The notes under the pieces were generated by a model. That model did not search any database and was not told where the DNA came from. It worked only from the letters and a program-made list of their open reading frames with translations. The translations under genes and the position numbers were made by a program. Shown piece by piece: positions 1 through 13,788 of a stretch of 13,788 nt of DNA. The DNA comes from Comamonadaceae bacterium. GTDB taxonomy: Bacteria > Pseudomonadota > Gammaproteobacteria > Burkholderiales > Burkholderiaceae_C. The DNA is taken from NCBI GenBank assembly GCA_947457975.1, contig CANGYC010000033.1, positions 1 to 13,788 on the forward strand. Reading direction: 5' to 3'. Numbering within the stretch: position 1 is the stretch's first letter; each line of letters starts with the position of its first letter.

Positions 1-1133
1 CCTAGCTTGTTGTGATAGACCACCTTGGCCAAACCCTCGACGCGTGCAGAGAGCGGGCGCTTGCGGTCTTGGTCGAAGAAGAACTTGGCGTCGGCCAGGC
101 GCGGGCGCACCACGCGCTCATTGCCTTGAATCACGGCCGAGGCATCATCTGGCCTGATGTTGCTCACCACCAGGAAGCGGTTGGTCAAGCGGCCTTGCGC
201 ATCGAGTAGCGGGAAGTACTTCTGGTTGGCCTTCATCGTGAGGATGAGGCACTCCTGCGGCACGTCGAGAAACTGCTTTTCGAATTCACACACGAGCACA
301 TTCGGGCGCTCCACCAGGGCCGTGACCTCGTCAAGCAGGGCCTCGTCCTCGATGGGGCGCACGCCGCCGCCCACCTGGGCGGCCGCAGCCTGGAGCTGCC
401 GCACGATCTCGGCGCGGCGCTCGGCAAAGCTGGCGATCACCGCCCCCTGCTCGGCTAATTGCTGCGCATAGCTGTCGGCATCGCGCAGGGTGAGCACGGG
501 CTGCGGCGCCTCGAAGCGGTGACCCTGCGTGGCATTGCCGGCGGTCAGGCCCAGGGCCTTGACCGGCACCACCGTGGAGCCGTGCAGCGCCACCAGGCGG
601 TGCGCCGGGCGCACGAAGTTCACGCTGCTCCAGCCGGGCAGCTCGCAGTCGGTCTCCAGCTGGTACTGCATGACCTTGGGGATGGGCAGCCGGGCCAGGG
701 CTTCGTCCAGCGCCTTCTGCAGGCCTGCCTGCAGGCCGGCGCCACGGGCGATGCTGTCGTAGAACAGCGCCTCGGCCTTGCCGTCAGGCTGGCGCTTGAG
801 GCGCGCCACCGCCGCGGCCGGATCGTCCACACCCAGGGCCTGCAGCTTCTTGAGCAGGGCCGGAGTGGCCTGGCCCTGCGCGTCCAGGCCCACGCTCACC
901 GGCATGAGCTTTTGCAACAGCGGCTGATCGGGCGCCTGCGAGAGCACGCCACTCACGTGGGCGGCCAAGCGGCGCGGAGAAGCGAAGGCGGTGACGGCGG
1001 CCTCGGCCGGGGCCAGGCCCTGGGCCTTGAGCTGCTCGGCCAGGGTGGCGGCAAAGGATTCGCCCAGCTTCTTGAGTGCCTTGGGTGGCAGCTCTTCGAC
1101 AAACAGTTCGACAAGAAGGTTGTTCATGCTCAT
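1..1133 (-). CDS. glyS: Glycine--tRNA ligase beta subunit, 5' part (runs off left edge)
   Basis: Beta subunit of the bacterial alpha2beta2 glycyl-tRNA synthetase, which charges tRNA-Gly in the cytoplasm; the beta chain carries the tRNA-binding regions. About 377 N-terminal codons are visible and open to the edge; family members are roughly 690-720 residues, so about half is missing. The N-terminus reads MSMNNLLVELFVEELPPKAL, the family hallmark, and further on there is LTMKANQKYFPL, typical of GlyS; the last visible residues are VVYHNKL. The start is the ATG ending at 1133, four bases after the glyQ stop; an in-frame ATG two codons later (ending 1127) is also possible. A purine-rich AAGAAGG within the end of glyQ may serve as ribosome binding site. 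The tight spacing implies co-transcription and coupled translation with glyQ, as expected for subunits needed in equal amounts. Confidence 0.96.
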   Translation of the reverse strand, partial: MSMNNLLVELFVEELPPKALKKLGESFAATLAEQLKAQGLAPAEAAVTAFASPRRLAAHVSGVLSQAPDQPLLQKLMPVSVGLDAQGQATPALLKKLQALGVDDPAAAVARLKRQPDGKAEALFYDSIARGAGLQAGLQKALDEALARLPIPKVMQYQLETDCELPGWSSVNFVRPAHRLVALHGSTVVPVKALGLTAGNATQGHRFEAPQPVLTLRDADSYAQQLAEQGAVIASFAERRAEIVRQLQAAAAQVGGGVRPIEDEALLDEVTALVERPNVLVCEFEKQFLDVPQECLILTMKANQKYFPLLDAQGRLTNRFLVVSNIRPDDASAVIQGNERVVRPRLADAKFFFDQDRKRPLSARVEGLAKVVYHNKL

Positions 1134-1137
1134 GGTC

Positions 1138-2043
<906 letters not shown>

Positions 2044-2125
2044 GTTCGGGGGACGCTGCCGGCGAGGCGGCGCCAGGGCCAGAAGGGGGAGGCACTCCGA
2101 ATAGGAGCAAACCCTGCATTCTACT

Positions 2126-2151
2126 GAGCCGCCCCCATGAGGGGCGGGCTC
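2126..2151 (-). terminator. Strong GC-rich hairpin at the end of lnt
   Basis: GAGCC-GCCCC pairs with GGGGC-GGGCTC around a short CATGA-type loop, with one bulged base. It overlaps the first base of the lnt stop codon (2150-2152). No T-run follows on either strand, so it is not a textbook intrinsic terminator. It could slow or partly stop transcription from lnt into glyQS, or protect the 3' end of the upstream mRNA. Confidence 0.4.
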
Positions 2152-3685
2152 ATCCGGCCCGGCGGCGGCGCATCCACCAGGCGGCCAGGCAGGTGGCCAG
2201 ACCCAGTGCGAGCCAGGGCACGAGACCCAGCACCGACACCCAGCGGGCGTAAGCCGTCAGGCCCTGGGTGCCCTGCACCTGCGCCTCGAGTGTGCCGCGG
2301 GTGTGACGCGGCAGCGCGTGGGTGACCTGGCCCTGCGCATCGATCACCACGGTGGCGCCGGTGTTGGTGGCCCGCACCATGGGCCGGGCGAACTCCAGCG
2401 CGCGCATGCGCGAAATCTGCAGGTGCTGGTCAATCGCGACGGTGTTGCCGAACCAGGCGATGTTGCTCACGTTGACGAACACCGTGGGGGCCGACTGCGG
2501 ATCGCGAAAGCGCGCGCCCAGCTCTTCACCGAACAGGTCCTCGTAGCAGATGTTGGGCGCCAGGCGCTGGCCCTGCCACTCGAAGGAGGCTTGCGCGAGC
2601 GGCCCGCGCGCAAAGCTGCCCAGCGGAATGTTCATCATGCGCACAAACCAATCAAACGCCAGCGGAATGAATTCGCCAAAAGGCACGAGGTGGTGTTTGT
2701 CGTAGCGATAGGGCTGCTCGGTGCCGGGCTTGAGGCCCATGACGGAATTCGTGTAACCCTGGTCCAGCGCACCCAGGGGCAGGCCAATCAGAGCCGCTTG
2801 CTGGCCCGAGGCGAAGCGCTCGAGCAGGCTTTTCCAGTAAAGGGGATCCATCTGGCTGGGCAAGAGGGGCAGCGCCGTCTCCGGCAGCACCACCAGCGCG
2901 CCGCGAGCCTGGCCCAGTTGCTCGCCGTAGTAACGCAGGGCATCGGCCAGGCCGGTGCCGGGCATGAATTTTTCATCCTGGGCGATGTTGCCCTGCACCA
3001 GCGTGAGGGACAGTGGCGCCTGCGCCAGGGGCTCGCCGCGTGGAGCCGGCAGGGCGGCCAGGCCGAGTGCACCACCCACCAGCCCAGCCAGGGCCCAGGC
3101 CCGATGGCGCCGGACTGGACCCAGGCAGGCCGCCAGGGCCGCGGCCCAGAGCGCGGCCAGCCAGCTCAGGCCATGCACGCCCAGCCAGCCGGCCAGGGGC
3201 CGGGCCCAGCCATCAATGTGCGCGTAGCCGGACTGGCCCCAGGGAAAGCCGGTGAAAAGCCGAACGCGGGCGAGCTCGGCCAAGAGCCAGCAAGCCGCAA
3301 AGAGCAGCACCCCGCCCCAGGCCGAGGCGGGCCGCAGCCAGACATACAGACCCGCCGCCAGCGCGTAGTACAGCGCCAGCAGACCGGCCAGCAGCAGCAC
3401 GGCCAAGGCGGCCAGCGGCGCGGGCAGGCCGCCGTACACATGCATTGAAATGAACAGCCACCAGAACGTAGCCACAAGCATGGCGGTGGCAAAAAGCCAG
3501 GCCGACCGCGCCGCCTGTGCGGGGCGCTCGCAGCGCTGCAGCTGCCAGGCCAGCGTCGCCAGCGCAGCCAGTTGCAGCCACGCCTGAGGCTCGCCCTGAG
3601 GCAGCCCCCAGGCCAGGGGCCAGGCCAGGCTGAAGGCGTGGGCCGTGCCGGCCAGCAGCAGGCCGAGGGCGGCGGGCCAGCCCAT
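2150..3685 (-). CDS. lnt: Apolipoprotein N-acyltransferase
   Basis: Inner-membrane enzyme that adds the third acyl chain, taken from phospholipid, to the N-terminal cysteine of lipoproteins; this is the last step of lipoprotein maturation. At 511 residues it has the usual family length. The N-terminal half (about residues 1-215) is a chain of hydrophobic helices; the second half is the nitrilase-like periplasmic domain, and a final hydrophobic helix ends in an Arg-rich tail (MRRRRAG). The Glu-Lys-Cys catalytic triad is intact: E269 in [11 protein letters not shown]330 in [14 protein letters not shown], and C380 in [12 protein letters not shown]. The ATG shares one base with the corC stop (TGATG), so translation is probably coupled. 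The corC-lnt pair is widely conserved in proteobacteria. Confidence 0.97.
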
Positions 3686-4530
3686 CAGGCGGCGACCGGG
3701 GACACCTTGAACCAGCGCACCGCGCCGCCCCGCGTGAGCATCACCACGAACTGCAGACCCTGCAGCACGTGGCTTTCGCCACGTTTGGGGACATGGCCCA
3801 TCTCGTGCGCCACCAAGCCACCGATGGTTTCGAGTTCGCCCATGGGCAGGTTCACACCGAAGGCCTCGTTCACGCGCTCGATGGCGGTGTCACCGCTGAC
3901 GCGGTAGCTGCGGTCGGTGAGCGCAAAGATGTCGCCCTCATCGTCGGCGATGTCGAACTCGTCTTCGATCTCGCCCACGATCTGCTCAAGCACGTCCTCG
4001 ATGGTGATGAGGCCGGCGACGCGGCCGAACTCGTCAATCACGACGGCCAGGTGGTTGCGGTTGCCGCGGAAGTCACGCAGCAGATCGTTCAGACCCTTGC
4101 TCTCGGGCACGAAGACCGCCGGGCGCAGCAGGGCGCGGATATTGAGCTCGGGGGCGCGCTGCAGCTTGAGCAGATCCTTGGCCAGCAGGATGCCAATGAT
4201 GTTTTCCTTGTCGCCCTCATACACAGGAAAGCGCGAGTGGGCGGTCTCGATGACGCCGTGCAGCAACTCGTCGTAGGGCGCATCGATGTCGATCACATCC
4301 ATGCGCGGGGCCGCCACCATGACATCGCCAGCCGTCATGTCGGCCATGCGGATCACGCCTTCGAGCATCTCGCGGCTCTGGGCGCCAATGACGTCTTTGT
4401 CCTGGGCTTCGACCAGGGTTTCGATCAACTCGTCCTTGGAGTCGGGGCCGGGATGCAGCATCTCGGCGAGCTTTTGAAGGAAACCTCGTTTGTCTTCCAA
4501 GCGGGAAGACCGGGGGGGAAGGTCGGCCAC
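3685..4530 (-). CDS. corC: CorC/YbeX family CBS-domain protein
   Basis: Cytosolic CBS-pair protein of the CorC/HlyC family, linked in enterobacteria to Mg2+/Co2+ efflux and, as YbeX, to ribosome-related functions. It has 281 residues without membrane helices. A CBS pair spans about residues 65-195: the first repeat contains MTAGDVMVAAPRMDVID and HSRFPVYEG, the second contains LAVVIDEFGRVAGLITIEDV and then EQIVGEIEDEFD. The C-terminal CorC_HlyC domain follows (YRVSGDTAIERVNEAFG; GHVPKRGE). The start is a GTG ending at 4530; an in-frame TAG lies seven codons upstream and no better ATG exists before residue 24. No clear Shine-Dalgarno sequence is seen. Its stop overlaps the lnt start. In many proteobacteria phoH and ybeY lie directly upstream, but here an acetyltransferase does. 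Confidence 0.94.
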   Translation of the reverse strand: MADLPPRSSRLEDKRGFLQKLAEMLHPGPDSKDELIETLVEAQDKDVIGAQSREMLEGVIRMADMTAGDVMVAAPRMDVIDIDAPYDELLHGVIETAHSRFPVYEGDKENIIGILLAKDLLKLQRAPELNIRALLRPAVFVPESKGLNDLLRDFRGNRNHLAVVIDEFGRVAGLITIEDVLEQIVGEIEDEFDIADDEGDIFALTDRSYRVSGDTAIERVNEAFGVNLPMGELETIGGLVAHEMGHVPKRGESHVLQGLQFVVMLTRGGAVRWFKVSPVAA

Positions 4531-4614
4531 GAAGGTGCGCGGTAGTTGCTAAGCGGGCAAGGATAGCCCAATTCCATGACAGCCTGCGGTCAGGGGCATG
4601 CCCGGGGCAAGGGC

Positions 4615-5328
4615 TTAGCGGGCCGTGCGCTCGCGGGCCTCGCGCACGCCCTGGCGCACGTCCTGCACCACCTTCAGCACATCCAAGAACTGACGCGCCT
4701 GCACCTTCAGGTGGTAATCGGTCTGCGCGATCTGCTCCTCCAGCAGCTCGGAGATGCGCGAGTCGATGTCGGCCGGCGGCAGGCGCAGGTAGCACTCGCT
4801 CTCGCCGCCCTCGCGCTCGACGGAGGCACCGGCTTTGCGGGCGATCTTGAGCATGGCCGTGTTCTCGCTGAGCGCATGCACGAACATCAGGCTCACGCCC
4901 TCGTTGCGGGCGTGCATGACGGCCCGGTCGAACAGCCGGGCGCCATAGCCCCGCCCGCGCACGCGCTCGATCACCGAGACGCCGAATTCGGCGCAGCTGT
5001 TGCACTGCGGATCCACCGAGAAGGCCAGGTGGGCCATGGCCAGCAATGTGAGCCGGCGGTTGTAAATGCCAAAGATCTCGTCGCGCTCGAAGTTCAGGCC
5101 GTCGACGTAGCGGCCGATCTGCTCGTCATTGGCGGCATAGCCAAAGCGCAGGTAGCGGTCGCGCGGGCCCAGGGACAGCAGGTGCGCCCGGATGCGCTCG
5201 AGGTGGCTGGGGCCCAGCGAACGGATGGGCACCAGGGCGCGGGCAGGATGCCGCGCGTGCCAGGCCGGGCCGAGCAGGCGGCGCCCCATCTCGAGGGAGG
5301 CCTTGATGAGCTGACCGACGTTCAACAT
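4615..5328 (-). CDS. GNAT family N-acetyltransferase
   Basis: Probable acetyl-CoA-dependent N-acetyltransferase; the substrate is unknown. It has 237 residues from the ATG ending at 5328. The GNAT acetyl-CoA-binding motif A is clear: FGVSVIERVRGRGYGARLF, with R/Q-x-x-G-x-G/A met by RGRGYG at about 124-129. The motif B region follows (VSLMFVHALSENTAMLKIAR), with the typical late Asn and a small helix. An N-terminal extension (about residues 1-50) and a Glu/Gln/Arg-rich, probably helical C-terminal tail (about 185-237) flank the core. An upstream in-frame GTG ending at 5367 would add 13 residues (MRSYPGANPYIDP); ATG is preferred because MLNVGQLIKASLEMGRRLLG looks like a natural amphipathic start, though neither has a strong ribosome binding site. 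It lies between the hydrolase gene and corC on the same strand, possibly as an independent unit. Confidence 0.87.
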   Translation of the reverse strand: MLNVGQLIKASLEMGRRLLGPAWHARHPARALVPIRSLGPSHLERIRAHLLSLGPRDRYLRFGYAANDEQIGRYVDGLNFERDEIFGIYNRRLTLLAMAHLAFSVDPQCNSCAEFGVSVIERVRGRGYGARLFDRAVMHARNEGVSLMFVHALSENTAMLKIARKAGASVEREGGESECYLRLPPADIDSRISELLEEQIAQTDYHLKVQARQFLDVLKVVQDVRQGVREARERTAR

Positions 5329-5435
5329 TGGATCAATGTAAGGGTTTGCACCAGGATAGCTCCGCACTTTTACAGAGTCTCACCATGCCCGCTGGCCCGG
5401 CCGGAATGTGGCGGCGCAGCAACTGCCTGGCCTAC

Positions 5436-5449
5436 CCTGCCGCCGCAGG
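5436..5449 (-). terminator. Small hairpin just after the alpha/beta hydrolase stop
   Basis: CCTGC-GGCG-GCAGG forms a five-pair stem with a four-base loop directly behind the stop codon (5451-5453). No T-run follows, so a terminator role is only a guess. Confidence 0.25.
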
Positions 5450-5450
5450 C

Positions 5451-6380
5451 CTAGCAAGCGGGCTCGGGCGGGGCGGTGGGCAAGGCAGGCGCGTCCAGGC
5501 AGGCCAGCACGGCCGTGACGACTTCAGGCCGCCAAGCCATCTGCACGTGGGCCAGGCCCGGCAGCAAGCGGTTGTCGGCCCCCGCCAGCCGGGCATGGCT
5601 GGGCGGGAACACCATGTTGTCGGCATTGGAGTGGAGGCACACGAAGTGCCGGGGCCATGAGGCCGGGACATCGGCGTTCAGGGCCTCAAGCCACGGATGG
5701 CCAGGCTGCATCTGGTGGGCATTGGGCGAGTAGCCGAAGTGCGCGGTCCAGGTGCCCCGGTGGGGGGTGCCCAGGGTCACCAGGCGATGGACGCGCTCGG
5801 GGGCGCGGGCCTGCCGCAACCAGGCCCGCATGACCAGGCCGCCCATGCTGTGGCCCACCAACAGCGGCGGCAGGCCGGTGGCCTGGGTCATGCGCGCCAC
5901 CGCAGCGTCCAGCGCCGGCACGTGCGACTCGATGGGGGCGAAGATAGGCGCCAGGTCCAGCGCGATGAAGGGGCGGTCCTCACTCTGCAGGCGCTCCAGC
6001 CAGAGGTTCCAAACGCCCCGGTTGCAGAGGTAGCCATGCACCAGCACCACGCCGCGCCGGCCATGATGGCGGGGCGCGAGCAGGTCTGGAAAGCGCTGCG
6101 AACGAAAAGGCTGGTGCCAGCAGAACACCTGCGGGGCCACCCAGGTCTCGCTCCACCAGGCGCGCCAGAGCTGAGCGGCGGTGGCCACGGGCACCGCATC
6201 GCCGCGCGAGACCCAGCACAGTGCCAGGAACTCCACAGCCAGAACCGCCGCGTGGGCCAGCGCAATGGCGAGTGCACCGCCCAGCGCGGCACCGGGTGAG
6301 GCGCGGTGAAACAGCACCCAGGCCAGCAGGGTGGCCAGCCAGGCGAAGGTGGCCAGGGCCTGAAGACGGGCGAGCGGCAT
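5451..6380 (-). CDS. Membrane-anchored alpha/beta hydrolase (lipase/esterase-like)
   Basis: Probable serine ester hydrolase of the alpha/beta fold, closest in feel to triacylglycerol-lipase-like proteins; the substrate is unknown. It has 309 residues. Two hydrophobic stretches (about 8-24 and 34-57) suggest membrane anchoring. The hydrolase core starts near residue 108 with GVVLVHGYLCNRG (oxyanion HG at 115-116). The nucleophile elbow is GHSMGG with Ser178, followed by LVTLGTPHRGT, a motif common in lipases. D254 (HSNADNMV) and H278 (GLAHVQM) fit as the other triad members. The ATG ending at 6380 has no Shine-Dalgarno sequence; a TATGAT -10-like box lies just upstream (6387-6392, minus strand), so the mRNA may be leaderless. 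The gene is divergent from the metallo-hydrolase gene at 6459. Confidence 0.88.
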   Translation of the reverse strand: MPLARLQALATFAWLATLLAWVLFHRASPGAALGGALAIALAHAAVLAVEFLALCWVSRGDAVPVATAAQLWRAWWSETWVAPQVFCWHQPFRSQRFPDLLAPRHHGRRGVVLVHGYLCNRGVWNLWLERLQSEDRPFIALDLAPIFAPIESHVPALDAAVARMTQATGLPPLLVGHSMGGLVMRAWLRQARAPERVHRLVTLGTPHRGTWTAHFGYSPNAHQMQPGHPWLEALNADVPASWPRHFVCLHSNADNMVFPPSHARLAGADNRLLPGLAHVQMAWRPEVVTAVLACLDAPALPTAPPEPAC

Positions 6381-6458
6381 CTGAAAATCATAGCGGCCGT
6401 GTCACGGAGGACACAGGCCCGCGCCCGGGGGCGAAAGCACCGCCATTAATATGAAGCC
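6381..6458. promoter_or_regulatory. Divergent promoter region between two hydrolase genes
   Basis: A 78-base spacer between divergent genes. On the minus strand TATGAT (6387-6392) is a good -10 box; on the plus strand TAATAT (6447-6452) is a weaker one. Both end six bases before the first base of an ATG, so transcription would begin at or near each start codon. Neither gene has a recognisable -35 or ribosome binding site. In the middle is an inverted repeat GTGTC-acggag-GACAC (6399-6414), a candidate operator. A plus-strand ATG at 6451 opens a three-codon frame overlapping the real start at 6459. Confidence 0.35.
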
Positions 6459-7373
6459 ATGACGCACTTTCTTCCTCCCGGCCTGTCGGTCATTGAGCGC
6501 GGCTGGCTCTCGGCCAACCTGGTGCTGGCCCAGGGCCAACGCCCGGCCCTGATCGACAGCGGCTACGTCAGCCATGCCGAGCAGACGCTGCAACTGGTGG
6601 CCGCCTCTCTGAAGGGCCAAGCCCCTGAGCTGCTGCTCAACACCCACCTGCACAGCGACCACTGCGGCGGCAATGCGGCGCTGCAGGCCGCCTACCCCCA
6701 GATGCGCACCCTCATTCCCCCGGGGCACGCCAGGCAGGTGGCCGACTGGGACGAAGAGGCGCTGACCTACCAGCCCACGGGCCAGCGCTGCCCGCGCTTT
6801 CGATTTGATGCGCTGCTGCAGCCGGGCCAGGACATCCTGCTGGGCGACCTGCCCTGGCAGGTGCATGCGGCGCCCGGCCATGATCCGCACAGCGTGATCT
6901 TGTTTGAACCGGCCAGCCGCACGCTGGTGTCGGCCGATGCGCTCTGGGAAAACGGCTTCGGGGTGATCTTCCCGGAGCTCGAAGGCGAAGAGGCCTTCGG
7001 CGAGGTGGCCGCCACGCTGGACCTGATTGAGCAGCTCCAGCCGGCCACCGTGGTTCCGGGCCACGGGCCCGTGTTCGGCATGCGCACCGAAGTGATGGAG
7101 CGGGCGCGCCAGCGCCTGGCAGGCTTTCAGAAAGATCCGCAGCGCCATGCCCAGCATGCGGCCAAGGTGCTGCTGAAATTCAAGCTGCTCGAAGTACAGA
7201 AGCAGACCCGCGAGGTCTTCATGAGCTGGGCCCGAAACACCCCCTACCTGGGCCTGGTGCACCAGCGCTTTTTTGCCGAACAGTTGCTCGAGGACTGGCT
7301 GAGCCAGTTGCTGGCAGACCTGGCCAAGGTGGGTGCGGCCGAGCTGGAGGAGGGCTGGGTGCTCAACCGCTGA
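6459..7373 (+). CDS. MBL-fold metallohydrolase (glyoxalase II-like superfamily)
   Basis: Predicted two-metal hydrolase of the metallo-beta-lactamase superfamily; the substrate is not identifiable. It has 304 residues. All metal-binding motifs are present: NTHLHSDHCGG (H63, H65, D67, H68), PGHDPHS (H141), SAD (D160) and VPGHGPVF (H202). The core ends near residue 215; about 90 further residues form a mostly helical C-terminal extension of the kind seen as an accessory winged-helix segment in this superfamily. No signal peptide is seen, so it is probably cytoplasmic. The ATG at 6459 gives a natural N-terminus (MTHFLPPGLSVIERGW) but has no Shine-Dalgarno sequence. A weak hairpin (7377-7393) follows the stop. 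It stands alone, divergent from the alpha/beta hydrolase. Confidence 0.9.
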   Translation: MTHFLPPGLSVIERGWLSANLVLAQGQRPALIDSGYVSHAEQTLQLVAASLKGQAPELLLNTHLHSDHCGGNAALQAAYPQMRTLIPPGHARQVADWDEEALTYQPTGQRCPRFRFDALLQPGQDILLGDLPWQVHAAPGHDPHSVILFEPASRTLVSADALWENGFGVIFPELEGEEAFGEVAATLDLIEQLQPATVVPGHGPVFGMRTEVMERARQRLAGFQKDPQRHAQHAAKVLLKFKLLEVQKQTREVFMSWARNTPYLGLVHQRFFAEQLLEDWLSQLLADLAKVGAAELEEGWVLNR

Positions 7374-7617
7374 AGGCCTGCCGACGGGTCAGGACGATTT
7401 GCATGGATCAGCTACAGACACCCGCTTTGGCCGCAAAATCATCAGAAATAGTCATTAATTGAGGTCTCTATATGGATTAATTTTGGCTTTCAGCCACATT
7501 CCCCTCGATACCCAGAGCGTTTACAACTTAAAGCTAAAAATCGCGCCTGATAATCGTCAATCTGCAGAGATTAGACTGAAGGAACAACCGTTCGGTGTTT
7601 ATCAAGGTTTGTGATTT
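7374..7617. other. AT-rich spacer upstream of the response regulator
   Basis: This 244-base stretch holds no gene and is much richer in A and T than the rest of the window (hand count of 7441-7560: 46 G/C of 120, about 38%). It contains a weak hairpin at 7377-7393, the heptamer ATTAATT twice 22 bases apart (7454-7460 and 7476-7482), a GGCT-ttc-AGCC hairpin (7485-7495), an inverted repeat AATCT-gcag-AGATT (7559-7572) and ACCG-tt-CGGT (7587-7596). A GATAAT hexamer near 7549-7554 could be a -10 box; the best -35 partner (TTAAAG) is only 15 bases upstream. It probably holds the promoter and control sites of the response regulator gene. Confidence 0.5.
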
Positions 7618-8304
7618 ATGAACATTCTTCTGGTTGAAGACTACCAAGACCTGCTGCACGCCATTGCCGAATCACTCGAGCGCCTCGAGCACCGCGTGAC
7701 CGGGCTGCGCACGGCTGAGGAAGTGGACGCGGTCCTCGCCCGGCAGCGGACTGACCTGGCCCTGGTGGACCTCAACCTGCCACGCGAGGACGGCCTGAGC
7801 CTGATCAAGCGCCTGCGCCAGGCCCATCCCGAGATGGGCATCATCGTCATCAGCGCCCGCAACACCACCCTGGACCGGGTCAATGGCTACCAGAGCGGCG
7901 CCGACATCTACCTCACCAAGCCCGTCGCTAATGAGGAACTCGTGGCCGCCATCGATGGCCTGGCCCGCCGCCTGAGGCCGTCACCGCGCCTCAATGGCGT
8001 GATGGAGGACCGGACTATCGACCTCAACAGCCATACCCTGGAGCTCAACGGACCCCAGGGCAGCGCCCGGCTGACCACCACCGAGTTCACACTCCTGAGC
8101 GGGCTCGCACAGGCCAACGAGGGCAGGCTGGAGACCCCGCAGATCTACCAGCTCTTGGGCCGAAGCGAGGGCAAGAAATCTGCCCTGGAAGCCCTGATTT
8201 ACCGGGTGCGCCGCAAGCTGGCCGAAACGGGCGCGGGAGACAACTGCATCCGCGCCCACCGGCTCAAGGGCTACCAGCTGTTCTGCTCGGTGCGCCTCCT
8301 CTGA
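7618..8304 (+). CDS. OmpR/PhoB-type response regulator, orphan
   Basis: Two-component response regulator: an N-terminal receiver domain (about 1-118) and a C-terminal winged-helix DNA-binding domain (about 130-228), 228 residues in all. Receiver residues are all present: acidic pair E7/D8, phosphoacceptor D51 in LVDLNLP, S79 in VISAR, K101 in YLTKP. The effector domain has LTTTEFTLLSGLAQ and SALEALIYRVRRKL (recognition helix), but the usual final R-G-x-G-Y is RLKGYQLF, so it is somewhat divergent. No histidine kinase gene lies next to it; its partner must be elsewhere. AAGG about 11 bases before the ATG is a weak ribosome binding site. It is convergent with the RidA gene, 16 bases apart, and preceded by an AT-rich spacer. 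A link to the aromatic-CoA operon is possible but unsupported. Confidence 0.92.
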   Translation: MNILLVEDYQDLLHAIAESLERLEHRVTGLRTAEEVDAVLARQRTDLALVDLNLPREDGLSLIKRLRQAHPEMGIIVISARNTTLDRVNGYQSGADIYLTKPVANEELVAAIDGLARRLRPSPRLNGVMEDRTIDLNSHTLELNGPQGSARLTTTEFTLLSGLAQANEGRLETPQIYQLLGRSEGKKSALEALIYRVRRKLAETGAGDNCIRAHRLKGYQLFCSVRLL

Positions 8305-8320
8305 GCGGGCACCCAGCGCC

Positions 8321-8713
8321 CTAGTCGGGCACGACCGCCGTCACCTCGATCTCCACGCGGGCCTGGTCCTCAATGAGGGCACTGACCTCGACGGCCGTCA
8401 TGGCCACGCCGAAGTGGCCGATGATCTCTCGGAAGATCTTGCCGATTTCAGGCGCGGCCTCAAGGTAGTCGCGCTTGCTGGTGACGTACCAGGTCATGCG
8501 CACGATGTGCTCGGGCCGGGCGCCGCCCTCGGCCAACACGGCCACGATGTTCATGAGCGCCTGCCGCACCTGGCCGACCAGGTCGCCCGTGTGGAAGACG
8601 CCTTGTTCGTCCCAGCCGATCATGCCGGCCACAAACACCATGCGACCCTGGACGGCCACGCCATTGGCGTAGCCCTTGGGACGGGGCCAGCCCGGAGGAA
8701 GCAGTACCTGCAT
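8321..8713 (-). CDS. RidA/YjgF/YER057c family protein (Met at the catalytic Arg position)
   Basis: Small trimer-forming family whose RidA members hydrolyse reactive enamines/imines; older annotation calls them translation inhibitors. It has 130 residues, the family length, with the typical GRMVFVAGMIGWDEQG, QVRQALMNIVAVLAEGG and VEIEVTAVV segments. By eye, the catalytic Arg of canonical RidA (in the segment resembling ARSCVEV) is Met105 here (AMTAVEV), while the late Glu (E121) is kept, so it is not a standard 2-aminoacrylate deaminase. The ATG ending at 8713 is chosen because AAGGAG precedes it at ideal distance; the open frame extends upstream into the dehydrogenase gene without a good start. 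It is last in the operon, 32 bases after the acyl-CoA dehydrogenase. Its presence beside the monooxygenase/reductase fusion parallels the 'translation inhibitor' gene of the Azoarcus evansii 2-aminobenzoate cluster. Confidence 0.9.
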   Translation of the reverse strand: MQVLLPPGWPRPKGYANGVAVQGRMVFVAGMIGWDEQGVFHTGDLVGQVRQALMNIVAVLAEGGARPEHIVRMTWYVTSKRDYLEAAPEIGKIFREIIGHFGVAMTAVEVSALIEDQARVEIEVTAVVPD

Positions 8714-8745
8714 CAATGTTCTCCTTGTGTGTTCCGGTGGGCGGC

Positions 8746-9909
8746 TCAGGCGCCGGCCTTGAGCAGTTCGCGCGCGATGATGAGTTGCTGCACCTCGGTC
8801 GCCCCCTCGTAGATGCGCAAAGCGCGGATCTCGCGGTAGAGGCTTTCCACCATGACGCCCTGCGTCACGCCCAGGCCGCCCCACAGCTGCACGGCCGCAT
8901 CGATGACCTGCTGCGCGTTCTCGGTGGCCACCATCTTGGCCATGGCGGCTTCGCGCGTGACCGACTGTCCCTGGTCGCGCTGCCAGGCGGCGCGGTAGGT
9001 GAGCAGTGCGGCGCTGTCGATGGCCGTGGCCATTTGCGCCAGCTTGGCCTGGGTGAGCTGGAAGTCGGCCAGCACGCCACCGAACATGGCGCGCGTGCGC
9101 GTGCGCGCCAGGGCTTCATCCAGCGCCCGGCGCGCAAAGCCCAGGGCGGCCGCGGCCACCGAGGTGCGGAACACATCGAGCGTGCGCATGGCCAGCTTGA
9201 AGCCCTGGCCCGCCTCGCCCAGGCGCTGGCTGGCGGGAATGCGGCAGCTCGTGAACTTCAGGCGCGCCAGCGGGTGCGGCGCGATCACCTCGATGCGCTC
9301 GGCAATGGCCAGGCCCGGGGTGTCGGCGTCGACGATGAAGGCCGAGATGCCCCGCGAACCCGGGGCCTCGCCGGTGCGGGCGAACACCACGTAAAAGTCG
9401 GCAATGCCGCCGTTGGAGATCCAGGTCTTCTCGCCGTCAAGCACATATTCGGCGCCCTCGGTGCGTGCGCTGCAGCTCAGGGCCGCCACGTCCGAGCCCG
9501 CCTCCGGCTCGGAGAGGGCAAAGGCCGCAATCGCCTCGCCGCGGGCCACACGCGGCAGGTAGCGCTGGCGCTGCTCGGGCGTGCCTTGCAGGGAGATCGC
9601 GCCCGAGCCCAGGCCCTGCATGGCAAAGGCAAAGTCGGCCAGGCCCTGGTGGCGGGCCAGGGTTTCACGGATCAGGCAGATGGCACGGGTGTCGATCAAG
9701 TCAGCGGCCCCGCCATGCGCGGTGCCGCCCACCGCATGCCGCAGCCAGCCTGCGCGGCCCAGGGCCTGCACCAGGTGGCGGCATTCGGCGTCCACATCCT
9801 GGCCATGGGCGCCCGAGAGATGCTGCTGCGCCCAGGCGTCCAAGTCCTTTGCCAGCGTGCGGTGATGCGGCTCGAAGAAGGGCCAGTCGAGGTAACTCTG
9901 ATCGGCCAT
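8746..9909 (-). CDS. Acyl-CoA dehydrogenase
   Basis: FAD-dependent alpha,beta-dehydrogenase of CoA thioesters, passing electrons to electron-transfer flavoprotein. It has 387 residues, the family length, with all three domains: N-terminal helices, the middle domain with [16 protein letters not shown] and [20 protein letters not shown], and the C-terminal helical domain with [12 protein letters not shown] and [21 protein letters not shown]368 in IYEGATE fits the catalytic base position. The start is the ATG ending at 9909, one base after the stop of the crotonase gene, with GAGGG upstream; an in-frame TTG ending at 9924 would overlap that gene and is less likely. Here it probably oxidises an alicyclic or ring-cleaved CoA intermediate made from the aromatic substrate; the exact substrate is inferred only from context. 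Confidence 0.93.
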
Positions 9910-9910
9910 C

Positions 9911-10756
9911 TCAGTTGCCCTCAAAGCGCGGACGCTGCTTGGCCACGAAGGCGTGATAGGCCCGCGAAAAATCTTCGGTGAGCATGCAGATGGCCTGTGC
10001 CTGCGCCTCGGACTCGATGGCCTGGTCGATGGTCATGGACCACTCCTGGTGCAGCATGGTCTTGGTGATGCCGTTGGCAAAGCTCGGGCCCTCGGCCAGC
10101 TCGGCGGCCAGCGCCTGGGCCTGGGCCAGCAGGTCCTCAGGGGTACACAGGCGGTTGAAAAAGCCCCAGCGCTCGGCCTCCTCACCGCCCAGGCTGCGGC
10201 CGGTGTAGAGCAGCTCGCTGGCGCGGCCCTGGCCCACGATGCGCGGCAGCATGGCGCAAGCGCCCATGTCGCAGCCAGCCAGCCCCACGCGGTTGAACAA
10301 AAAGGCTGTCTTGCTGCGGGCCGTGCCCAGGCGAAGATCGCTGGCCATGGCCAGGATGGCGCCGGCGCCGGCGCACACGCCATCCACCGCCGCAATGAGG
10401 GGCTGAGGGCAGGCGCGCATGGTCTTGACGAGTTCCCCCGTCATGCGCGTGAACATGAGCAGCTCAGGCGCCTTCAGGGCAATGAGCGGGCCAATGATCT
10501 CGTGCACATCGCCGCCCGAGCAGAAGTTGCCGCCCTCGCCCGCCAGCACCACGGCGCGCACATCCTCGGCCCACTTGAGCTGGTGAAAGAGGTCGCGCAG
10601 TTCGGCGTAGGAGTCGAAGGTCAGCGGGTTCTTGCGCTCGGGCCGGTTCAGGGTGATGGTGGCCACCTGGCCCTGCACCTGCCAATGGAAGTGGCGGGCC
10701 TGGTAGCCGGCCAGGGTTTTGCGGTTGCCTGCGAGCAGGCTGGGGTCGATGCTCAT
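9911..10756 (-). CDS. Enoyl-CoA hydratase/isomerase (crotonase) family protein lacking both classical Glu residues
   Basis: Crotonase-fold protein acting on a CoA thioester, 281 residues. The N-terminal strand [20 protein letters not shown] and oxyanion-hole segments [12 protein letters not shown] and [19 protein letters not shown] are typical. By hand alignment with rat enoyl-CoA hydratase, both catalytic glutamates are replaced: Glu144 (GGGCE) by Ile134 and Glu164 (QPE) by Arg156 (FNR). An Asp163 in [17 protein letters not shown] could be the working acid/base, as aspartate is in some family members. Simple hydration is therefore doubtful; isomerisation, hydrolysis or ring opening of an alicyclic CoA thioester are alternatives. 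The ATG ending at 10756 is preceded by AAGGAA and lies 17 bases after the fusion-enzyme stop. It belongs to the operon running from 13098 to 8321. Confidence 0.9.
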
Positions 10757-10773
10757 CCGGGTTCCTTGGTGAA

Positions 10774-13098
10774 TCAGGCCTTGGCGGAAGCCGCCTGCTC
10801 GCGGGCGAAGTTGGCCTCGAGCTGGCTCTTGGCCGAGACGTACTGGCGCGGCCAGGCCAGCGGGGTGTAGCCGATGCGCGCGGCCTCGGTCAGCGTCCAT
10901 GCCGGGTTGGCCAGGTGCGGGCGGGCCACGGCGCACAGGTCGGCCCGGCCCGCAGCGAGGATGCTGTTGGCGTGGTCGGCCTCGTAGATGGCACCCACGG
11001 CGATGGTGGGAATGCCCGCCTCCTGGCGGATGCGGTCGGCAAACGGCGTCTGGTACATGCGGCCGTAGGTGGGCTTTTGGTCCGGGTGCACCTGGCCGGA
11101 GGAGCAGTCGATCATGTCGGCTCCTGCGGCCTTGAAGACCTGCGCGATCTGCACGGCCTCGTTGGGCGTGATGCCTCCGGGCACCCAGTCATGCGCCGAG
11201 ATGCGCACCGAGATCGGCAGGTGTGCAGGCCAGGCCGCACGCACGGCGCGGAACACCTCCAGCGGATAGCGCAGGCGGTTCTCCAGCGTGCCGCCGTACT
11301 CGTCGGTGCGGTGGTTGCTCAAGGGCGAGATGAAGCCCGAGAGCAAATAGCCGTGGGCGCAGTGCAGCTCCAGCCAGTCGAAGCCGGCGTCAGCGCCGCG
11401 GCGCGCGGCGGCCACGAACTCGTCGCGCACCCGGTCCATGTCGGCGCGTGTCATGGCGCGCGGCACCTGGCCATCGGGCAGGTAGGGACGGGCGCTGGCG
11501 GCCAGCAGCGGCCAGTTGCCCTGGGGCAAAGGCTGGTCCATGCCGCCGCCGGTCCAGGGCTCGCAGCTCGAGCCCTTGGCGCCGGCATGGCCGATCTGGA
11601 GACCAATCTTGGCATCGGACTGTGCATGCACCCATTCGACGATGTGCTTGAAAGCCTGGCCTTGCGCATCGGTCCACAGGCCCGGGCAGGAGGGCGTGAT
11701 GCGGCCTTCGGGGCTGACGCAGCTCATCTCGACCATCACCAGGCCCGCGCCGCCCAGGGCGCGCGCGCCCAGGTGCACCAGGTGGTAGTCGCCCACCAGA
11801 CCGTCCTGCGCGGAGTATTGCGCCATGGGCGAGACGACGATGCGGTTCTTCAGCTTCACGCTGCGCAGGGTGTAGGGCGTGAACATGGGCGGCGGCGCTT
11901 TGCCACGCACCTGCACGCCCGCCCGCTCGGCGAACCAGGTTTCATAGCCCTGCAGCCAGGCCGCATCGCGCAGCCGGAGGTTCTCGTGGCTGATGCGCTG
12001 GCTGCGCGTGAGCATGGAGTACATGAATTGTTCGGGCTCGAGCTGGTCGCAGTAGCGGTGGCCGCAGACCTCGAACCACTCCATGGCATTCCAGGCGGCG
12101 TTCTGGATGCGCAGCGTCTCCACGCGCCTGGCCTCCTGGTAGGCCGCCAGCACCTCGGGCAGCTGGGCCGGGTCGTCGCCCAGGGCCTTGAACTGGCGCG
12201 TGAGCTCAATGGCATCTTCAATGGCCAGCTTGGTGCCCGAGCCGATGGCGAAGTGCGCCGTATGCACGGCATCGCCCATGAGCACCACATGGCTGCCCTG
12301 CGCATTGCGCAGCCACCAGTGGCCACACACCACGCGCTGAAAGTTCAGCCAGGCCGAGCCCCGCAGGTGGCGGGCATTGGTCATGAGCTTGGCGCCTTGC
12401 AGATTATTGGCAAAGAGTTGCTCGCAAAAGGCGATGGACTGTTCCTGGTCGGCCTGGTCCAGGCCGTGGGCCAGCCAGACTTCCTCGGGGCACTCGACGA
12501 TGAAGGTGGTGGTGTTCTCGTCGAACTTGTAGACATGGGCCTGGAACCAGCCGTGCTCGGTGCGCTCGAACAGGAAGGTGAAGGCGTCGTAAAGCTTGTT
12601 CGTGCCCAGCCAGATGTAGCGGTTGGGGCGCAGGGCGATGTCGGGCTTGAACACCTCTTCATAGCGCGTGCGCACCCGGGAGTTGATGCCGTCGCTGGCG
12701 ATCACGAGGTCGGCGTCGGGGAAGTCCAGGTCGCTGTCCACGTCGGCCTCGAACACCAGCTTGACGCCCAGCTCCTCGCAGCGCAACTGCAGGATGTTGA
12801 GCAGCTTCTTGCGGCCGATGCCCACAAAACCGTGGCCCCCGGAGCGGATGACCTGCCCCTTGAAGTGCAGCTCGATGTCGTCCCAGTGGTTGAAGGCCTT
12901 CTGGATGACCTCGGCCGTCGGTGCGTCCCAGGCCCGCATGTTGTCCATGGTGGCGTCGGAGAACACCACCCCCCAGCCGAAGGTGTCGTAGGGCTTGTTG
13001 CGCTCGACCACGGTGATGTCGTGGGCGGGGTTGAGTTGCTTCATCAGCAGCGCAAAGTACAGGCCCGACGGGCCGCCACCGATGCAGACGATTTTCAT
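10774..13098 (-). CDS. FAD monooxygenase / old-yellow-enzyme reductase fusion (2-aminobenzoyl-CoA monooxygenase/reductase type)
   Basis: Predicted dearomatising flavoenzyme acting on an aryl-CoA. Residues 1 to about 395 are an aromatic-hydroxylase-type FAD monooxygenase: Rossmann motif [15 protein letters not shown] (7-12), E32 for FAD ribose, DG motif ASDGINS (136-137), and GD motif [16 protein letters not shown] (275-276). Residues from about 403 are an OYE/YqjM-type NAD(P)H:flavin reductase: [18 protein letters not shown], the H579-x-x-H582-G-Y584 substrate pocket, and NHRTDEYGG. Length (774) and layout match the 87-kDa enzyme of Azoarcus evansii that turns 2-aminobenzoyl-CoA into 2-amino-5-oxocyclohex-1-ene-1-carbonyl-CoA. 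Databases often label such fusions salicylyl-CoA 5-hydroxylase/oxidoreductase; sequence reading cannot decide the substrate. AAGGAG sits six bases before the ATG. It is the first gene of the operon, behind a palindrome-controlled promoter. A partly conserved Cys of YqjM (SPMC) is Ala here. Confidence 0.9.
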
Positions 13099-13114
13099 GG
13101 GTGCTCCTTGGTGT

Positions 13115-13128
13115 CCCGCCCGAGCGGG
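13115..13128 (-). other. Small hairpin in the 5' leader of the fusion gene
   Basis: CCCGC-ccga-GCGGG can form a five-pair stem in the leader, between the promoter and the ribosome binding site of the fusion gene. It may be fortuitous in GC-rich DNA. Confidence 0.25.
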
Positions 13129-13142
13129 GCAGGAACGTCGGA

Positions 13143-13166
13143 AAATAGTTTAGGCCTAAACTATTT
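13143..13166. promoter_or_regulatory. Perfect 24-base palindrome, probable MarR-type operator
   Basis: The half-site AAATAGTTTAGG (13143-13154) is followed directly by its exact reverse complement (13155-13166). It stands in an AT-rich patch inside GC-rich DNA. It covers the -10 box and most of the spacer of the predicted operon promoter, which suits repression by a dimeric regulator. MarR-family proteins bind palindromes of this size and often control aryl-CoA pathways; the comparable Azoarcus evansii cluster includes a MarR-like gene. The regulator gene itself is not in this window. Confidence 0.75.
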
Positions 13167-13175
13167 AAGACTCAA
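13147..13175 (-). promoter_or_regulatory. Sigma-70-like promoter of the catabolic operon
   Basis: On the minus strand TTGAGT (13170-13175) and TAAACT (13147-13152) are separated by exactly 17 bases; each matches its consensus at four of six positions. The palindrome overlaps the -10 box and spacer. Transcription would start about 40 bases upstream of the fusion-gene ATG. Confidence 0.5.
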
Positions 13176-13214
13176 TCACCCCGAGCAGGATCCGGGTATG
13201 TCCTGGCTGCGGAC

Positions 13215-13788
13215 TCAGCGATTGCGGAAACGACGGTCGATGAAGGCCTGCAGCTCGCCCACCACGCCCTTCCTGAAGGTCATCACGCAGACCACAAAGA
13301 TAGCGCCGATGATGACCGTGACCCAGGAGCCAACCTTGTCGGCCAAGAGGTTCTGCAGGGCGATCACGATGCCCGCACCGAGGACGGGGCCGAACAGCGT
13401 GCCTACGCCGCCCAAGAGGCTCATCAGGATGACCTCGCCTGACATGGACCAGTGCACATCGGACAGGGTGGCAAAGCCCATCACCAGGGTCTTGAGCGAG
13501 CCGGCCAGCCCGGCCAGGGCGGCCGAGAGAATGAAGGCCAGCAGCTTGTAGCGGTCGACCTCGTAGCCCAGCGAGATGGCGCGGGGCTCGTTCTCGCTGA
13601 TCATCTTGATCACCCGGCCGAAAGTCTAATTAACGATGCGCGAGATGCCCAGGTAGCAGGCCAGGAAGATCGCGGCCACCACGTAGTACATGGCGGTGTC
13701 CGAGCCCAGGTCCAGCCCGCCCAGGAAGGTGCCGCGCGGCACGGCCTGCAGACCGTCTTCGCCGCCCGTGAAGGGCGCCTGCAGGCAA
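13215..13788 (-). pseudogene. livM: Branched-chain amino acid-type ABC permease, interrupted by an in-frame TAG, partial
   Basis: LivM-type inner-membrane permease of a high-affinity branched-chain amino acid/amide/aromatic acid ABC importer. The visible part starts mid-gene and runs off the right edge. Upstream of the stop the frame reads FTGGEDGLQAVPRG and, further on, ACYLGISRIVN; then a TAG (13626-13628) interrupts, and the same frame continues TFGRVIKMISENEPRAISLG and on to DRRFRNR at the true stop (13215-13217). Family members have a Ser at the interrupted position (S-P/T-F-G-R), so one base change, TCG to TAG, explains it. The part after the stop (about 134 residues) holds the conserved EAA-like loop and the last membrane helices, so the truncated protein should not work. 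A GTG at 13611-13613 could in theory restart translation but has no ribosome binding site. Sequencing error is the main alternative. Its place upstream of the aryl-CoA operon suggests uptake of the aromatic substrate. Confidence 0.82.

Follow-up and report, generated by a model that had tools for sequence, protein, structure and literature searches.

A compact four-gene operon of a Comamonadaceae bacterium that very probably encodes the core of aerobic CoA-dependent anthranilate degradation

The window analysed here is the whole contig C33 of a Comamonadaceae bacterium (GenBank assembly GCA_947457975.1, contig CANGYC010000033.1; 13,788 bases), so the sequence to the right of position 13788 was outside our reach. 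The assembly has 302 contigs with 2.31 Mb and is 78% complete. Four minus-strand genes, which encode a fused monooxygenase/reductase, a crotonase, an acyl-coenzyme A (CoA) dehydrogenase, and a Rid-family protein, follow each other from 13098 to 8321 with gaps of 17, 1, and 32 bases (Table 1). All four frames are open and all start with ATG. The first-pass annotation had described this tight same-strand run, and its coordinates and spacings were right.

Table 1 Features of the window, in the order of the operon followed by the neighbouring genes
Feature	Position	Strand	Remarks
Perfect 24-base palindrome	13143..13166	none	44 bases upstream of the ATG of the fused gene; putative MarR-type operator
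Fused 2-aminobenzoyl-CoA (anthraniloyl-CoA) monooxygenase/reductase, predicted	10774..13098	minus	774 amino acids, 86.1 kDa
Crotonase-family enzyme	9911..10756	minus	281 amino acids; PRK08258, 504.6 bits (cut-off 330)
Acyl-CoA dehydrogenase	8746..9909	minus	387 amino acids; ATG at 9909; acyl-CoA dehydrogenase Pfam domains
Rid-family (RidA-type) protein	8321..8713	minus	130 amino acids; PF01042
LivM-type ATP-binding cassette (ABC) permease, 3' end	13215..13628	minus	PF02653; in-frame TAG at 13626-13628; upstream neighbour
Left part of the window	3-8304	minus	Glycyl-tRNA synthetase genes, lnt, corC, GNAT-like gene, alpha/beta hydrolase; mostly read from translations
Left part, plus-strand end	within 3-8304	plus	Metallo-beta-lactamase-fold protein, OmpR-type response regulator; read from translations, last three genes of the whole left part also by family search

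The fused protein consists of a hydroxylase dependent on flavin adenine dinucleotide (FAD) at about residues 1-370 (PF01494) and an Old Yellow Enzyme (OYE) half at about residues 405-750 (PF00724). It matches the NCBIfam family PRK08255 with 1359.6 bits (cut-off 1078). A 2-aminobenzoyl-CoA monooxygenase/reductase is a single chain of about 87 kDa with both domains, and the window protein has this same architecture. The crotonase is probably the ring-cleaving hydrolase or a hydratase of the pathway. Its closest solved chain by sequence, 3g64 (243 bits), is named merely as a putative enoyl-CoA hydratase. For the acyl-CoA dehydrogenase, a longer frame with a TTG start at 9924 is an alternative, which would overlap the crotonase gene. 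Its closest solved chains, 5idu (611 bits) and 5jsc (606 bits), bear general names only, and the operon offers a function for such structures.

The operon had been read in the first-pass annotation as the aerobic 2-aminobenzoyl-CoA pathway, with the proposal to compare the fused protein with a characterised 2-aminobenzoyl-CoA monooxygenase/reductase. The comparison bears this reading out: over 774 positions, i.e., full length, the fused protein is 71.7% identical to its counterpart at locus L245 of Aromatoleum (Azoarcus) evansii KB740. Work on this pathway was done in that species, from which two copies are published, L245 presumably being one of them. The A. evansii locus contains the gene kinds that had been described for the pathway. 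Of its beta-oxidation genes, the crotonase and the dehydrogenase are present in the window operon and the short-chain dehydrogenase/reductase (SDR) is absent (2/3), and the Rid gene is present in addition. We therefore read the operon, at a probability of roughly 0.9, as the core of aerobic CoA-dependent anthranilate (2-aminobenzoate) degradation of the A. evansii type.

The grouping of the genes was followed in the loci around the best 80 of 596 confirmed relatives of the fused protein (named loci), of which 42 are at least 18 kb long. With identity limits that we set ourselves, a related crotonase gene was found near the fused gene in 39 of the 42 long loci, a dehydrogenase gene in 37, and a Rid gene in 33. 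Such recurrence argues that the grouping is not due to chance. For the frequency of the fused gene, we used a family sample of 119 other genomes and a phylum sample of 298 other genomes (Pseudomonadota, judged from named relatives). Counting the own genome, it occurs in 74/120 and 61/299 genomes, respectively. At least seven of the genomes with the fused gene are common to both samples (G020, G042, G070, G087, G088, G091, and G114).

A different substrate is implied by the NCBIfam name of PRK08255, "bifunctional salicylyl-CoA 5-hydroxylase/oxidoreductase", according to which the operon would feed a gentisate pathway. We consider such a salicylyl-CoA 5-hydroxylase operon extremely improbable. 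Among the 120 listed relatives of the fused protein, whose names were sorted by eye, 15 carry the NCBI salicylyl-CoA name, whereas 27 are called 'anthraniloyl-CoA monooxygenase' by JGI. The family presumably owes its name to SdgC, the salicylyl-CoA 5-hydroxylase of Streptomyces. We take SdgC to be a stand-alone monooxygenase of gentisate chemistry without an OYE half, and it is by description only that we set it apart from the window protein. Gentisyl-CoA would give neither the OYE half nor the Rid protein an evident task. In the own genome (78% complete), a search for a gentisate 1,2-dioxygenase gave one fragment of 37 bits near a contig edge, far from the cut-off of 442.1. Moreover, PRK08255 also matches the counterpart on plasmid pAL1 of Arthrobacter sp. 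Rue61a (1228.5 bits), which bears the NCBI name beside a presumed anthranilate-CoA ligase gene, although its host grows on anthranilate and, according to excerpts of the Rue61a paper, not on salicylate or gentisate (PMC3534580). As the pAL1 protein bears the name too, while the JGI names differ, the NCBI name is not evidence for salicylate. The first-pass annotation had likewise decided against the salicylyl-CoA reading that automatic labels suggest. The salicylate route was rejected on the naming of the pAL1 enzyme, the missing dioxygenase match in the 78% complete genome, and the 72% identity to the A. evansii counterpart.

The naming has consequences, as the pathway is common, yet NCBI files the fused gene under salicylate and JGI under anthraniloyl-CoA monooxygenase. 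Consistent naming would alter predictions of what these bacteria eat. Anthranilate arises from tryptophan, indole, and quinolines. A pathway tool from 2022 left out tryptophan breakdown by this route for want of knowledge, as stated in an excerpt of its description (PMC9007349).

A 2-aminobenzoate-CoA ligase gene is absent from the window. It had been predicted to lie to the right or elsewhere, and 'elsewhere' proved correct: contig C153 of the same genome carries a ligase gene whose product is 70% identical to the G015 cluster ligase, 46% to its pAL1 counterpart (both searches hit the same best place), and 55% to the A. evansii ligase. Weaker ligase-like candidates on C56 (35%) and C124 (27-30%) were discarded in favour of the far better match on C153. 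The C153 ligase is a lone gene, unlike that of A. evansii L245, which sits in the run. It adjoins genes resembling gspK, gspL, and gspM of type II secretion, as read from translations. With E values up to 1e-140 as the limit for the ligase type, 71 of the 73 other family genomes with the fused gene have such a ligase, compared with 0 of the 46 without it. The exceptions are G057, in which a contig end truncates a ligase gene, and G090.

Contig C124 (L056, 1-7143) also holds the gene of a stand-alone FAD monooxygenase that has no OYE half. Its beginning is lost at the contig start, and it shares 37% identity with the first half of the fused protein. It is followed by genes for a MaoC-like protein, a BKACE-like protein (both named by reading), a crotonase, a CoA ligase, and an acyl-CoA dehydrogenase.

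Ligase type and gene content match anthranilate clusters. These matches speak against a pathway of the same type that in the cell would act on an anthranilate with substituents or on a different ortho-amino aromatic acid, although the fused protein is just 72% identical to the A. evansii one and some genomes, e.g., G088, have two copies. We regard such a substrate as unlikely and keep anthranilate as the probable one.

Upstream of the fused gene lies a perfect 24-base palindrome, a single match that was found in none of 200 shuffles. A similar but imperfect site precedes the C153 ligase frame by some 30 bases. The pattern TWGTTTAGRCYTAAASTA, with two mismatches allowed, matched only before the window operon and before the C153 ligase in 2.31 Mb, and the reversed control gave 0 matches. 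At the palindrome, 0 sites were found for a sigma-70 consensus promoter. The window core was also compared with 493,231 bases from 26 family loci. When up to 4 mismatches were allowed, sites turned up solely in the 110 bases preceding the fused gene, in 8 loci. Allowing up to 5 gave a site at this place in 16 loci vs 2 sites elsewhere, and one of these two (L058) immediately precedes a ligase gene. Allowing up to 6 gave 20 loci vs 9 sites elsewhere. At A. evansii L245, a 5-mismatch site lies 293 bases upstream and a 6-mismatch site precedes the MarR gene.

No MarR gene is present in the window. A MarR relative is encoded on contig C37 of the same genome. It is 53% identical to the G099 MarR, 52% to the A. 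evansii one, and 66% to the L172 one. Judged by this similarity, the C37 protein is the likely partner of the putative operator. A 6-mismatch site at the start of its own frame is too weak to count, because sites of this quality also turned up 9 times away from the expected place in the 493 kb. Another contig of this genome, C216 (L124, 142-2138), carries a MarR-like gene that diverges from a Rid paralog (Ser at the position of Arg105), followed by a gene for a TctC-like binding protein. There, an operator-like site with 5 mismatches (701-718) coincides with the beginning of the MarR frame.

Several points weigh against the pathway reading and its proposed regulation. The operon lacks the ligase, MarR, and SDR genes, which are kept nearby in 34, 36, and 26 of the 42 long named loci, respectively. 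Hence, parts of the pathway depend on unlinked genes of an incomplete assembly. The search pattern was fitted to both sites in the own genome, so zero mismatches there are given by construction, and the weight therefore lies in the absence of other matches. Among the named loci with enough upstream sequence, just 30 of 77 have the motif with up to 5 mismatches; it is frequent, not universal. The sampled genomes are related, and our genome counts ignore kinship.

The missing genes also raise the question of a decayed remnant, in which the ligase, SDR, and MarR genes have been lost from the locus and the four remaining genes no longer function. An in-frame stop in the neighbouring livM fragment fits this explanation. 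However, all four frames of the operon are open, and the ligase is found elsewhere in the genome with the motif. In addition, locus L167 of another assembly has the same four genes with 80-87% identity, the 18-base operator core without a mismatch, and, following the operon, relatives of the window neighbours mbl, lnt, corC, and glyQ. Its 18 kb contain no ligase, MarR, or close SDR gene either, and a ligase is likewise absent from the available stretches of L172, L206, L207, and L241, among others. Decay is thus very unlikely; judged by sequence, the compact four-gene layout is inherited.

The Rid protein differs from RidA at the catalytic position. In the alignment to solved RidA-type chains, the window protein clearly has Met105 in place of Arg105. 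Among 61 distinct close sequences including the own one, Met is found at this site in all 60 that are readable there, the remaining one being cut before it. The same 61 sequences have Tyr17 throughout (61/61), and position 120 is Glu in 50 and Gln in 10, with one sequence cut; the window protein has Tyr and Glu. Met is also present in the Rid proteins of A. evansii and pAL1, in each of the 50 Rid genes that the 80 named loci yielded, and in all 120 database proteins listed as nearest (116 recognised by pattern and 4 by eye), although these sequence sets overlap. The own genome has five Rid genes. Of the four others, the two picked up by the profile have Ser at this site.

The distribution of the Rid gene was followed in both samples. 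A close Rid was defined by a cut at an E value of 1e-25, which was set after seeing that no genome's best match fell between 1.3e-31 and 8.1e-14; all close Rids thus had a best E value of 1.3e-31 or lower. In the phylum sample, a close Rid was found in 58 of the 60 genomes with the fused gene vs 0 of the 238 without it (58/2/0/238). Of these 58 genomes, 51 have both genes on one contig and at most 20 kb apart, 5 have them on different contigs, and 2 have them on one contig but far apart. In the family sample, the corresponding counts are 70/73 and 1/46.

These data lead to a proposal for the course of the pathway. The 2-aminobenzoate-CoA ligase encoded on C153 would make anthraniloyl-CoA. The Rid protein may hydrolyse the ring enamine at C2, which would yield ammonia and 2,5-dioxocyclohexanecarboxyl-CoA. 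The crotonase could then hydrolyse the C1-C2 bond of this beta-keto thioester by the addition of water, giving 4-oxopimeloyl-CoA, and the acyl-CoA dehydrogenase would start beta-oxidation. A MarR repressor, possibly the one on C37, is predicted to control both the operon and the unlinked ligase gene via the palindromic operator, so that the two would form one regulon. For strain Rue61a, excerpts of the paper report a C7H8O4 CoA ester solely on anthranilate, which the authors thought might be cyclohexanedione-carboxyl-CoA (PMC3534580). The formula of 2,5-dioxocyclohexanecarboxyl-CoA agrees with that ester.

We give an even chance to the proposal that the Rid protein is a dedicated deaminase for the CoA-bound ring enamine, which would make it the first Rid demonstrated to function without Arg105. 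RidA requires Arg105, which binds the carboxylate of the substrate, as stated in excerpts of two papers (PMC4433059, PMC8113886). Met may replace Arg because the substrate is a thioester without a free carboxylate to grip there. If true, the deamination step of the pathway would be filled, and one group of Rids without Arg would receive a function. Their role was called unknown in 2015, and in 2021 they were described as without known deaminase activity (PMC4433059, PMC8113886). The proposal makes nitrogen release accessible to an assay and bears on the role of Rids without the catalytic Arg.

Some evidence stands against a deaminase. According to the same excerpts, Rid4-Rid7, which lack Arg105, gave no detectable deaminase activity in tests, Arg-to-Ala variants were inactive, and RutC was inactive once its Arg was changed (PMC4433059, PMC8113886). 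This inactivity speaks directly against the proposal unless a thioester substrate needs no Arg. Furthermore, the intermediate is reported to shed ammonia in acid without an enzyme. Some genomes depart from the distribution: in the phylum sample, G341 gave no Rid match, and the Rid of G393 is weak and lies 14.5 kb away from its fused gene; in the family sample, G017, G065, and G068 have the fused gene without a close Rid, and G104 (76% complete) has a close Rid without the fused gene. Alternatively, the Rid protein could be protective only and quench reactive imines or quinone-imines that arise as by-products, without being an obligatory enzyme of the pathway. This function would agree with the known role of RidA, the missing Arg105, and the release of ammonia without an enzyme. 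In contrast, the fixed Met and the near confinement of this Rid to genomes with the fused gene, beside other Rid paralogs, argue against it. We hold a purely protective function to be doubtful, though clearly worth considering, next to the deaminase proposal. We found no publication that links RidA with aminobenzoyl-CoA or anthraniloyl-CoA in a search that covered few subscription papers, and the idea may be in print elsewhere.

The upstream neighbour of the operon (13215-13613) encodes part of an ABC permease (PF02653) rather than a binding protein. The frame has 53 readable residues before the TAG and 136 after it, and the stop reflects either a decayed gene or a sequencing error. An ABC-type substrate-binding protein gene is absent from the window, which has only this permease fragment upstream, and the rest of the genome was not searched for it. 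The fragment was also considered as a member of the Liv/PaaK/TctC set that precedes the fused gene in L050-L053 and L062. This assignment was dropped, as neither piece matched the set at an E value of 1e-8. For the piece after the stop, L054 and L058 gave the best match (40%); for the piece before it, L058 did so (54%, 46 residues long). At L188, a relative with 60% identity to the piece after the stop lies 2.6 kb upstream of the fused gene.

Relatives of the fused enzyme include two that were found as two adjoining matches (L062 of G114, 8412-10784; L053 of G015, 7621-9987). Their open frames run through with 809 and 819 residues, and the simplest reading is an insertion at the linker between the halves. 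The enzymes of the Nocardia loci L226, L232, L233, and L236 are 73% identical to the window protein. L232, L233, and L236 share the common betaproteobacterial gene order, and L226 is cut short. The shared order suggests a transfer between phyla.

Among known systems, the A. evansii locus L245 is the nearest. Its fused enzyme has 773 amino acids and 87.1 kDa, and the crotonase, the acyl-CoA dehydrogenase, and the Rid protein (with the same Met) are 64%, 69%, and 52% identical to those of the window. These four genes lie on one strand in the same relative order. In full, the run of L245 reads fused enzyme, SDR, crotonase, acyl-CoA dehydrogenase, Rid, MarR, CoA ligase, and a last gene read by eye as an ABC-type binding protein, whereas the window operon lacks the SDR, MarR, ligase, and binding-protein genes. 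Schuhle and co-workers are said to have described the aerobic 2-aminobenzoate cluster in 2001 with eight kinds of gene, and the Rid gene was reportedly presented there as a putative translation inhibitor. The content of L245 fits this eight-gene description of 2-aminobenzoate metabolism.

The Rid protein resembles the Rid-family deaminases of catabolic pathways, i.e., 2-aminomuconate deaminase, 2-amino-5-carboxymuconic 6-semialdehyde deaminase, and RutC, which are small proteins that remove ammonia from an enamine. Such deaminases occur in other aromatic pathways, as noted in an excerpt (PMC6449761). Unlike the window protein, RutC retains the Arg, and these deaminases act on free carboxylic acids, not CoA thioesters.

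Plasmid pAL1 (L065) is a further known system. Its fused enzyme is 50.4% identical to the window protein, its ligase 46% to that of C153, and its Rid protein, with Met at position 105, 38%. The neighbours differ (fumarylacetoacetate hydrolase family, cupin, and thioesterase), PaaX-type regulators take the place of MarR, the Rid gene lies on the opposite strand, and no operator site within 6 mismatches was found in the 45 kb read. Excerpts of the Rue61a paper state that a plasmid gene was shown to encode an anthranilate-CoA ligase and that anthraniloyl-CoA was detected in cells grown on anthranilate (PMC3534580). The locus tags differ between the paper and the record; in our reading, this ligase with measured activity is the AMP-binding gene that immediately precedes the fused gene (L065, 24988-26643). 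Compared with these systems, the window operon belongs to a known kind of pathway, here with a split regulon, since in its genome the operon and the C153 ligase alone carry the operator-like motif within two mismatches.

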